A stretch of DNA of 64,000 nt from Bacteroidetes bacterium SB0662_bin_6 (lineage in GTDB: Bacteria; Bacteroidota; Rhodothermia; Rhodothermales; VXPQ01): NCBI GenBank assembly GCA_009839485.1, contig VXPQ01000018.1:1-64000 (forward strand). Direction: 5' to 3'. Below the pieces are notes generated by a model. It saw nothing but the letters and a program-made list of their open reading frames with translations. It ran no database searches and was not told the origin of the DNA. Below, piece by piece: positions 1-52,510 of the stretch; position 1 is the stretch's first letter; each line of letters begins with the position of its first letter. The translations under genes were made by a program, and so were the position numbers.

Positions 1-30
1 TTGACGCCGTGCCTGACGGAACAGAGCATT

Positions 31-56
31 GCTGCATAGTGGTAACAGGCCCTAAA
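31..56 (+). repeat. 26-bp dispersed repeat, copy A
   Basis: This 26-bp sequence (core GTAACAGGCCCTAA) is identical, base for base, to positions 4467-4492. A 20-bp imperfect version lies at 50441-50460. Read on the opposite strand it begins TTTAGGGCCTGTTA, which would suit a transposon end, but no transposase is near any copy. Copies B and C each lie within about 15 bp of a gene start. Here the next ATG (59) opens only a 10-codon frame. Confidence 0.8.
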
Positions 57-4384: not shown

Positions 4385-4460
4385 GCCGCGTTCGTCTAGG
4401 GGTCCAGGACGCCGGCCTTTCACGCCGGTAACACGGGTTCAAATCCCGTACGCGGTACCA
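4385..4460 (+). tRNA. tRNA-Glu (TTC anticodon)
   Basis: A 76-nt cloverleaf with encoded CCA. The anticodon loop is CTTTCAC and the T-arm contains ACACGGGTTCAAATCCCGT. The D-arm CGTCTAGGGG... is typical of tRNA-Glu. The first acceptor pair appears as G-U. The exact 26-bp repeat at 4467 starts six bases after the 3' end. Confidence 0.95.
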
Positions 4461-4466
4461 CGTCAC

Positions 4467-4492
4467 GCTGCATAGTGGTAACAGGCCCTAAA
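4467..4492 (+). repeat. 26-bp dispersed repeat, copy B
   Basis: Identical over 26 bp to positions 31-56. It sits between the tRNA-Glu 3' end (4460) and the PhyH start codon (4503). Direct repeats beside a tRNA recall attachment sites, but the 4.4 kb between copies A and B holds only ordinary genes and no integrase. Confidence 0.8.
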
Positions 4493-4502
4493 GGTTTTTG
4501 CC

Positions 4503-5372
4503 ATGTCGTTTAATGATCTGTCCCGCTTGCACACGGTCGTAAGCGACCTGTTTTCCGGCATGGATCCGGAGACGCACCGCCTGACCGCCGAGCAGGTCGC
4601 CGTTTTTAGCGAGAAGGGGTATGTGTCCGGAATTAGTCTTCTTAATGACGAACAGATCGAAGCGCTTCGGGCAGAATTACAGGAGTTTTTCGACCCGGGT
4701 CACGAGGGGCATGAGCTCTGGCACGAATACCATACCAACGAGTCCGGTGACCCGGACAACGTGTTGTTTCATGCCCTTGGCGCCTGGCGGATTCGCCCGG
4801 GATTTCATGACGCCTTGTGGAATCCGGCGTTTACCGTACCGGCGGCCCAGCTTCTTGCCGGTCCGGTCCGGTTCTGGCACGACCAGCTTTTTTGCAAACC
4901 CGCCCGACATGGCGGGGTGGTGGCATGGCATCAGGATTATTCGTATTGGACCCGCACACAGCCCCTGTCGCATCTCACCTGCTGGATCGGCCTCGACGAC
5001 GCCACGGTTGATAACGGATGCATCTGCTACATTCCGGGGAGCCACGAATGGGAACTGCTTCCGATCACGGGGCTGGCGAACGACATGGAAGCTATTTTTC
5101 AAGTCCTGACCGAGGAGCAGAAGGAAGCGTTCAATCCTGTTTCGATAGAACTCAAGGCCGGGGAGGCGACCTTTCATCATCCCCTGATGGTGCATGGTTC
5201 CCATGCGAACCGGACGGCTCGCCCTCGGCGCGCCATGGTCATCAATGTAGTTCGGGACGGAGTGCACTCTGCTACCGACGAGCCGCTTCTCGACGGCGTC
5301 CCGACTATTGGTAAAGGCAAGGCGCTGGACGGCCAATTCTTTCCCCTTTTGTACGATCCTTCCAACCCATGA
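4503..5372 (+). CDS. Phytanoyl-CoA dioxygenase (PhyH) family protein
   Basis: A 289-residue cytosolic Fe(II)/2-oxoglutarate-dependent dioxygenase. The H-x-D iron motif is seen in [11 protein letters not shown]. The distal His and the 2-oxoglutarate-binding Arg are in [20 protein letters not shown], and the double-stranded beta-helix core runs through [11 protein letters not shown]...[11 protein letters not shown]. PhyH proteins hydroxylate diverse small molecules, so the substrate is unknown. Its stop codon overlaps the next start by 4 bp (ATGA), tying it to a Gfo/Idh/MocA oxidoreductase. The pair probably acts on a sugar- or cyclitol-like compound (inference from context). Confidence 0.88.
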
Positions 5373-50403: not shown

Positions 50404-50440
50404 ACGCGGCGGAATACGCCGGCGCCCGTCCCGCGTCCGG

Positions 50441-50460
50441 CATCGTGTTAACAGGCCCTA
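50441..50460 (+). repeat. Dispersed repeat, imperfect copy C
   Basis: CATCGTGTTAACAGGCCCTA matches the corresponding 20 bases of copies A and B at 18 positions. It ends 13 bp before the DsbD start codon, similar to the placement of copy B before PhyH. Confidence 0.65.
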
Positions 50461-50473
50461 GCCCACCACGATT

Positions 50474-52510
50474 TTGCGCCACTACGTTTTTGGATTTGTG
50501 CAGTGTCTCGCCCGCATAGGCTGGCTGGCTGCGCTTGTCCTGTGTACCGGGTTTGTGGGTGCGCAAGCGTTTGCGCAGGATTTCCTGTCTGCCACGGACT
50601 ATGTGACCTGGAACGTGTCGGTGGCCCCCGAAGAAGTTGCTTCCGGGGAAGCGTTCGAGGCGGTGATCGAAGCGGACATCTCGGAAGGCTGGAAGATGTA
50701 CGCGCTCGATTCGCCGCGTCCGAGTTTTGCCGTTGAGTTCACGTGGGAAGAAGAGGGTCTGTTGCCCGCAGGCCCCATGCGCCAGAGTACGCCCGTCGAG
50801 GCGCATGATCCCTGGTTTGACGCCACGGTGCGCTACTTCACCGGGCAGGCCCGGTTTACCGCCCCGTTCCGGATTGGAGAGGATGCCCCCGCGGGAAATC
50901 GCCCGCTCAACGGCGTCGTGCAGTTCATGATTTGCACCGAAGAGGTGTGTCTGCCCCCCACACCGGCGCCGCTCGAGGCCGTAGTACATGTTATCGGGGG
51001 TGGACTTGCCGTTCAGGGCTCCGTATCCGGCGCCGGGGCGGTGGTCGGGGACGAGGGGAACGACTCGCTTCGTTCCGTGCCCGATCTGGCCGGAGACAGC
51101 GCTCCCCTGGTCTTGTCTCCTGATTCGGCCACCGAAGACGACGGCGATGCGCACGCCGGCGGTCTGTGGCGCTTTATTCTGCTGGCGATCGGGGCCGGGC
51201 TTGCCTCGCTCCTGACACCCTGCGTGTTTCCGATGATTCCGCTGACCGTTTCCTGGTTTTCGAGGCATGCTTCGAAGCGTTCCGAATCGGTTCGTATGGC
51301 GCTGGCCTTCGGGGCGGCGATTGTCCTTACCTTCACGACGCTCGGCTTGCTGGCCGCTTCCCTGCTCGGCGCGGCCGGGGCGCATACCATTGCGGCCAAT
51401 CCATGGATCAATCTTTTCATCGCAGGGATATTCGCCGTGTTTGCGTTTTCGCTGCTCGGCATGTTCGAATTGACACTGCCGGGCCGTTTCGTCAATTACT
51501 TCAATCGTCAGGGGAACGAGCGGTCGGGGTATGCAGGCACATTTTTTATGGGGTTGACCCTGACGCTGGTGCATTTTTCCTGTACCGTTCCGTTTGTGGG
51601 GGGGCTGCTCGCGCTTGCCACAGCGACCGGCGAGTGGGTGTATCCCGTCATCGGTATGGTGGTCTTTTCGGCTACGTTTGCGGTGCCGTTCGTAGCATTC
51701 GCCCTGTTCCCGAAAGCGCTGCAATCATTGCCCGGAGCAGGATCCTGGATCCACCGCATTCAGGTTACACTGGGTTTCGTGGAGCTTGCCGCCGCCCTCA
51801 AGTTTTTGTCGAATGCCGACCTTGTTATGGGGTGGGGGCTGATTTCGCGGCCTGTGGCCATCGCCCTCGCCATGGTGATTTTCGGACTTGCCGGGTTTTA
51901 TCTGCTTGGCAAAATCCGGATGCCTCATGAGCCGGCAGCCCAACCTGTCGGAGCCGGACGGCTGCTTTTTGCCTCGGCTTTCCTGGGGATTTCCCTGTAT
52001 ATGCTGCCAGGTCTTTTTGGGGCGCCGTTGCCCGGGATCGATGCCTGGCTTCCTCCGGCGTCAGCAACGCAGACCGGATCCGGCGTGTTTTCGGGGCGCG
52101 CAGACGATGAGCCGGTCTGGAGTGAAGATATAGATGCGGCGTTCGAACAGGCGCAAAGCGCAGGCAAACCCGTGTTCATCGATTTCACGGGGTATACCTG
52201 TGCAAATTGCCGCCAGATGGAAACCAGTGTGTTTCGCGAGGAACCCGTGGCATCTCTGCTCCGGAACGATTTCGTGCTGCTGCGCCTCTATACCGACGCG
52301 CGCGATACCGGTCCGGCATTGCAGCAGTATCAGATTGCGTTGGCGGGTACCGTAGCGCTTCCGACCTATGTTATTGCGGATCCGTATTCCGGTATCCTTC
52401 TACACAGGCACACAGGAATCGCATCGGTTTCGGAATTCGCCGAATTTCTCCGGCAGGGCGCCGCCTTCGAGGCGGATGCGCCTGCGGCCTTTTTGCCCGG
52501 TTCTTCGTAA
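50474..52510 (+). CDS. dsbD: Thiol:disulfide interchange protein DsbD
   Basis: A 678-residue inner-membrane reductase passing electrons from cytosolic thioredoxin to the periplasm. A signal peptide (residues 1-35) is followed by a DsbD-alpha domain with MICTEEVCLPP. The membrane domain has about eight helices, with Cys in LASLLTPCVFPMIPLTVSW and VHFSCTVPFVGG. A C-terminal thioredoxin domain has CxxC in GYTCANCRQMETSVF. All three modules and their Cys pairs are recognisable. The start is TTG. Regulation is unknown; repeat copy C is immediately upstream. Confidence 0.94.
   Translation: MRHYVFGFVQCLARIGWLAALVLCTGFVGAQAFAQDFLSATDYVTWNVSVAPEEVASGEAFEAVIEADISEGWKMYALDSPRPSFAVEFTWEEEGLLPAGPMRQSTPVEAHDPWFDATVRYFTGQARFTAPFRIGEDAPAGNRPLNGVVQFMICTEEVCLPPTPAPLEAVVHVIGGGLAVQGSVSGAGAVVGDEGNDSLRSVPDLAGDSAPLVLSPDSATEDDGDAHAGGLWRFILLAIGAGLASLLTPCVFPMIPLTVSWFSRHASKRSESVRMALAFGAAIVLTFTTLGLLAASLLGAAGAHTIAANPWINLFIAGIFAVFAFSLLGMFELTLPGRFVNYFNRQGNERSGYAGTFFMGLTLTLVHFSCTVPFVGGLLALATATGEWVYPVIGMVVFSATFAVPFVAFALFPKALQSLPGAGSWIHRIQVTLGFVELAAALKFLSNADLVMGWGLISRPVAIALAMVIFGLAGFYLLGKIRMPHEPAAQPVGAGRLLFASAFLGISLYMLPGLFGAPLPGIDAWLPPASATQTGSGVFSGRADDEPVWSEDIDAAFEQAQSAGKPVFIDFTGYTCANCRQMETSVFREEPVASLLRNDFVLLRLYTDARDTGPALQQYQIALAGTVALPTYVIADPYSGILLHRHTGIASVSEFAEFLRQGAAFEADAPAAFLPGSS

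Follow-up and report, generated by a model that had tools for sequence, protein, structure and literature searches.

What is a 26-base sequence that occurs twice, letter for letter, in one stretch of bacterial DNA, and once directly in front of a gene? We asked this of a window of 64,000 nucleotides, the start of contig 18 in the draft genome of its host (G000; 2.92 Mb, 69 contigs). As the initial annotation had reported, the sequence at positions 31-56 is identical, base for base, to that at 4467-4492, and a close third copy lies near 50441-50460, where we found a 16-base core with one mismatch (50445-50460). Searching with GTGGTAACAGGCCCTA and allowing up to three mismatches gave three matches in the window against 0.22 expected, a number reached in none of 100 shuffles. 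Recent spread or functional constraint had been proposed, together with a role at the two downstream genes and a likeness to insertion sequence (IS) ends.

The repeat and the element it ends

Two copies stand before genes, at exactly the spacings first described. Copy B (4467..4490, plus strand; the 26-mer as first described extends to 4492) retains 24 bp in the gap between a tRNA-Glu (TTC) gene at 4385..4460 (plus strand; ARAGORN, Rfam) and a PhyH-family dioxygenase gene at 4503..5372 (plus strand; ORF, Pfam PF05721), with 6 bp between the end of the tRNA at 4460 and the repeat and 10 bp between the 26-mer and the ATG at 4503. Copy C (50440..50460, plus strand; core match) lies downstream of the gene for ribosomal protein L9 and 13 bp upstream of a TTG-start ORF encoding a DsbD-like protein (50474..52510, plus strand; Pfam DsbD domains); its left part, GCATC, is target sequence. 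Copy A (1..54, minus strand) is the end of a longer element and not a solo repeat. It matches positions 1-54 of that element at 100%, and the remainder is missing because the contig starts at window base 1. An Rfam scan of the window returned two tRNAs only.

The longer element emerged from the host genome as a whole, in which the exact 12-mer TAACAGGCCCTA occurs 46 times, compared with two occurrences of the reversed control. When the matches were aligned, the repeat proved to be the final portion of a longer one, and some motif pairs faced each other 265 bp apart, from GGGCC to GGCCC. With the TA at both ends (TA-GGGCC...GGCCC-TA), the full unit is 269 bp long and has imperfect terminal inverted repeats (TIRs) of about 33 bp; the 26-base repeat is the tip of such a TIR. 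Its length and palindromic make-up suggest that it is non-coding. Used as a query, it matched 95 stretches of the host genome, seven of them near full-length (95-100% identity) and many partial. Most copies are flanked by TA on both sides, and some have a changed flank. The element is thus a non-autonomous mini-transposon (MITE): it is short, has TIRs in common with an autonomous element, is bordered by a target-site duplication, and occurs as dispersed, polymorphic copies. We recognized no description of it in the literature, where none of the papers listed as matching the TIR letters was relevant by title. In kind, the feature in the window is ordinary, consisting of MITE tips and their relics. 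Numerous host contigs start or stop within the element, window base 1 included, which explains why so many contigs of the draft break where they do.

We cataloged TIR ends in host loci, allowing up to three mismatches. The 77 rows comprised 14 from the seven full copies, 19 cut by contig ends, and 44 others, of which 43 keep 17-206 bp; the remaining row (L187, minus strand) is a poor alignment to the second tip of a short copy. Partial copies keep one tip, and their orientation and context vary, with many unrelated contexts. Retained lengths of 41 bp (seven rows), 40 bp (two), and 43 bp (one) suggested a mobile mini-element of 42 bp. Eight of these ten rows have the left edge (T)AGGSCC (L020, L188, L192, L195, L196, L202, L203, and L027). 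As such edges are best explained by deletion from TAGGGCC in the left tip to TAGGCCC at the base of the second hairpin, we rejected a mobile 42-bp unit. L187 and L189 have other joins.

A probable partner insertion sequence and the spread of the element

By scanning fetched loci for facing tips that flank an ORF, we found a candidate partner in a proteobacterial MAG (L092). In this 804-bp unit (808 bp with TA), facing tips surround two overlapping ORFs, the first with a DUF4096 domain and the second with DDE_Tnp_1 (PF13340 and PF01609), and a run of seven A lies within the overlap. The IS5-family NCBIfam model transpos_IS5_3 scored ORF2 above its cut-off and ORF1 just below. Searching the host genus with the second ORF gave three matches in G001, four in G002, and one in G003. 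The G002 copy (L239) is 858 bp with TA and has the tips TAGGGCCTGTTAACACTA...TAGTGTTAACAGGCCCTA; the G003 copy (L237) has one base changed in each tip. Thus, an IS5-family IS with the tips TAGGGCCTGTTAACACTA...TAGTGTTAACAGGCCCTA exists in a congener of the host and in Proteobacteria, with sizes of 808, 857, and 858 bp including TA and an A7 or A9 run in the overlap. Because the same search found no such transposase in the host (G000), G004, or G005, mobilization in the host is what we infer. A multi-copy IS can drop out of a 69-contig draft.

The MITE and the IS have only the tips in common, about 18-20 bp each, which means that the MITE did not arise by simple deletion from the IS copies seen. 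The exact 20-mer is present in at least 138 copies at no fewer than 120 loci, and among the 120 loci listed, of at least that number in existence, seven have this transposase beside the tip: L092 and six further loci. Six of the seven are truncated where the contig or the examined stretch ends.

By resemblance, we assign the partner IS to the IS427 group, and frameshifting between its ORFs is predicted from the sequence. In the parts of the group's description drawn on here, members of this IS5-family group, which include elements from Paracoccus, are mostly 832-865 bp long and mostly have direct repeats of 2 bp; in some, two ORFs overlap and a frameshift motif is present (PMC3281130). On these points, the partner IS agrees: it is 808-858 bp long, its two ORFs overlap at a run of 7-9 A, its domains are DUF4096 and DDE_Tnp_1, and its target is TA; L092 is a little shorter than the size range given there (PMC3281130). 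The element in the window differs from the group in lacking an ORF, and has only the tips in common with the partner IS.

A scan of genome contigs with CATAGTGNTAACAGGCCCTA located at least 120 loci in at least about 49 assemblies, counted by accession prefix. Among the loci listed, most were in Gammaproteobacteria, followed by Betaproteobacteria (among them Polaromonas, Variovorax, and Acidovorax), with a few in Alphaproteobacteria and Desulfovibrio; the Rhodothermales MAG was also represented. In many of the listed loci, the facing tips are 264-267 bp apart, and in others 45-47, 66-86, 160-195, or 246-345 bp. A plasmid search with one proteobacterial copy as query found none, and viral contigs held no exact match.

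Two further observations concern these copies. In three proteobacterial copies of 333 bp (L124:5648-5980, L128:3630-3962, and L131:7366-7698), one hairpin is enlarged by about 66 bp. The added sequence is similar in all three and has a palindrome of its own (AAAAACGC/GCGTTTTT), as though a further small element had landed in the hairpin. In two Escarpia endosymbiont genomes, the MITE occupies the same site, full in one (L138:696-960) and without both hairpins in the other (L103:6544-6609, 66 bp left), which is the same kind of decay as in the host, in another phylum.

Origin of the solo tips

The sites of the solo tips could be compared among relatives. Of 60 genomes searched, host counted, only two contained the 19-mer CATAGTGNTAACAGGCCCT, G000 with 39 copies and G005 with 36; the reversed control gave none. 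At the site of copy B, G003 has CACGCTGTGGTATGGTATCCTAAAG where the window reads CACGCTGCATAGTGGTAACAGGCCCTAAAG and is TIR-free, and G004 has a different insert. In G005, a long CT dinucleotide run lies within 400 bp upstream of the PhyH start (L178), and the tRNA neighborhood is not conserved. The site of copy C (site 2) is TIR-free in G003 and G004, and G005 has a longer remnant whose right junction is identical. The TIR-free state of the orthologous sites in congeners marks copies B and C as lineage-specific relics.

These comparisons divide what had been proposed for the repeat. Spread holds in part, as spread by transposition, and constraint is not supported, since the genes stay while the congener sites lack the repeat. 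A role at PhyH or dsbD fares no better: the repeat is missing with the genes in place, and its copies lie in many unrelated contexts. The likeness to IS ends was borne out by the IS5-family IS with matching ends in a congener and in Proteobacteria; none turned up in the host assembly, in which the mobile unit is the MITE. The initial annotation had named unrelated contexts, the lack of an IS with matching ends, and no effect on transcription, taken together, as the outcome that would speak against its reading; since such an IS exists, the result favors the IS reading.

For 18 sites with solo or short copies, we searched the element-deleted flanks in G003, G004, and G005. A spanning alignment was obtained at 15 of the 18, and a clearly alignable TIR-free orthologue at 13; sites 1, 4, and 17 (no spanning alignment), 13 (too diverged), and 10 (G005 only, with tip) were unusable. 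Locus L231 was used at site 8 only, as it aligned elsewhere solely through another copy. Flank and element share 2-7 bp at the junction at nine of the 13 sites and 0-1 bp at four. With empty-site strings trimmed by hand, mean junction microhomology was 2.62 bp over the 13 sites compared with 1.02 bp for random junctions, and two of 20,000 simulations were as high. Often the target has lost its bases from the microhomology to the insertion point, which is what a deletion running from the flank into the element would produce.

The relatives also preserve different states of the same insertions. At site 6, remnants in G000 and G005 are of unequal length, and at site 8 G000 has one tip and G005 the opposite one. 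In a second set of ten sites, site 52 has a full copy and site 22 a 42-bp copy in G000, and both are an empty TA in G003 and G004. Site 45 is full in G000 and reduced to the 8-bp TAGGGCCT in G005. Sites 23 and 55 have a footprint in G005 and are empty in G003/G004. At site 24, a short remnant is left in G005, and G003/G004 carry another MITE. At sites 44, 47, and 49, the relatives lack the element less cleanly, and site 47 may be either empty or a deletion; site 43 gave no spanning match. The best reading of the compared sites is that insertion preceded deletion.

Our best explanation, to which we give a probability of roughly 0.88, is that the MITE was moved in trans by an IS5-family transposase and that many copies were then trimmed by one-sided microhomology deletion. 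Full MITEs would insert at TA in the host lineage, where insertion itself is seen at the compared sites; the putative enzyme acting on this gene-free element would be an IS5-family transposase of the type that carries the same tips. Deletion on one side, between a few matching bases in flank and element, would then leave a short tip such as copy B or C. Such deletions may be of the slippage type, independent of transposase, and the two internal hairpins probably ease them.

One-ended transposition, in which the transposase joins one TIR at TA, copying into the element ends prematurely, and the free end is rejoined to the target at a microhomology, would yield like products: one precise tip, a variable other end, and microhomology. 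We favored it at first, as partial copies keep one end, and demoted it once the same insertions were seen to have left different remnants in G005. Sites 11 and 16, which are empty in G005, fit it. Together with sites 7, 14, and 15, where G000 and G005 have the same remnant, and site 10, where they agree within 2 bp, these sites show no full-length stage and are therefore compatible with either decay or one-ended insertion. At sites 2, 6, and 8, however, what the sister genome G005 retains at the same position is another part of the element, at site 8 the opposite tip, and at site 45 a full copy stands opposite the footprint. One-ended events would need repeated hits at one base, whereas a single full insertion gives both states, and we consider one-ended transposition unlikely.

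It is far less probable still that selection keeps the 26-mer near gene starts as a regulatory or promoter motif of the host. Its identical copies, its enrichment (46 versus two), and the positions of copies B and C 10 and 13 bp before genes would suit such a motif. However, the sequence is the tip of a full element, varies in orientation and context, and is absent from 58 of the 60 genomes searched. The corresponding sites in G003 lack it, as does that of copy C in G004, and a simple promoter scan found no promoter at copy B. Equally hard to credit is an integron attC-like or REP/REPIN-like hairpin recognized by a tyrosine recombinase or RAYT, for although the internal hairpins, with a GC/TT mismatch beside GGCG/CGCC, recall REP stems, the element ends in long TIRs at TA that it has in common with a DDE transposase IS. 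The searches made, which had other targets, brought up neither an integron array nor a RAYT.

A covarying fold and comparison with known systems

We aligned 15 of 38 full-length matches (<90% identity; 270 columns, with L108 turned by hand). Eight aligned copies, folded singly, each formed a terminal stem and two long hairpins with a small loop stem (CCCGAAGGG or close) between them. The consensus fold has 92 pairs, 60 of which have changes on both sides. Pairing held in 91.9% of cells compared with 75.3% in shuffles, and double changes occupied 193 cells compared with 54.5 when shuffled and at most 72 when slid; deriving the consensus structure from the same alignment favors the fold somewhat, and the margin is large. 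Full copies from Rhodothermales and Proteobacteria thus have a four-stem clover-leaf in common, with strong covariation. To our knowledge, it is unusual for a MITE to have a covarying fold that several proteobacterial groups share with Rhodothermales. An Rfam search found no known RNA family at E≤0.1 in six sources. The pairs may be kept matched either by selection or by palindrome-correcting (template-switch) repair.

The host genus contains a second MITE family, whose tip AAGGATACTCTGAT occurs in 21-110 exact copies per genome in six genomes of the genus and not at all in controls. We located it at congener loci L262, L263, and L266 and at L188, L189, L197, and L026 in the host's own genome. 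Copies at three loci, 188-255 bp long, have the same clover-leaf layout with CCCGAAGGG or CCCAAAGGG at the center and little sequence similarity to the first family, and at several loci first-family copies lie inside a second-family element. One genus therefore holds two MITEs with unrelated tips (TAGGGCCTGTTA and AAGGATACTCTGAT) and one four-stem layout. A tentative idea, which we think rather less probable than not, is a class of bacterial mini-transposons in which selection acts, across phyla, on the clover-leaf core (hairpin, CCCGAAGGG loop, hairpin) itself, as folded DNA or RNA, and which swap tips to join different transposases.

What began as a repeat has become a readable record of insertion and decay, in which sites are empty, full, one-tip, or an 8-bp footprint in sister species. 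Because these states can be read across species, nature offers a setting in which to study how microhomology deletion removes palindromic mini-transposons. The covarying fold makes it testable whether selection maintains such a structure or whether template-switch repair of palindromes alone does. Worth following are this fold, which recurs in different phyla, and the decay series that can be read from the sites.

Nearly precise excision of Tn5-type inverted repeats, reportedly described by Collins in 1982, is said to proceed by deletion between short direct repeats around a palindrome, independently of transposase. Here, in contrast, such a process is read from natural remnants. In the features covered by the part of the account of prokaryotic MITEs used here, the element resembles others in being short, non-coding, and dispersed, with TIRs, an IS partner, and strong predicted folding (PMC10969869). 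Set against that part of the account, it differs in its covarying four-stem fold and near-constant 264-267 bp, both retained from Proteobacteria to Rhodothermales, and in its copies in the host, which are mostly one-tip relics (PMC10969869).
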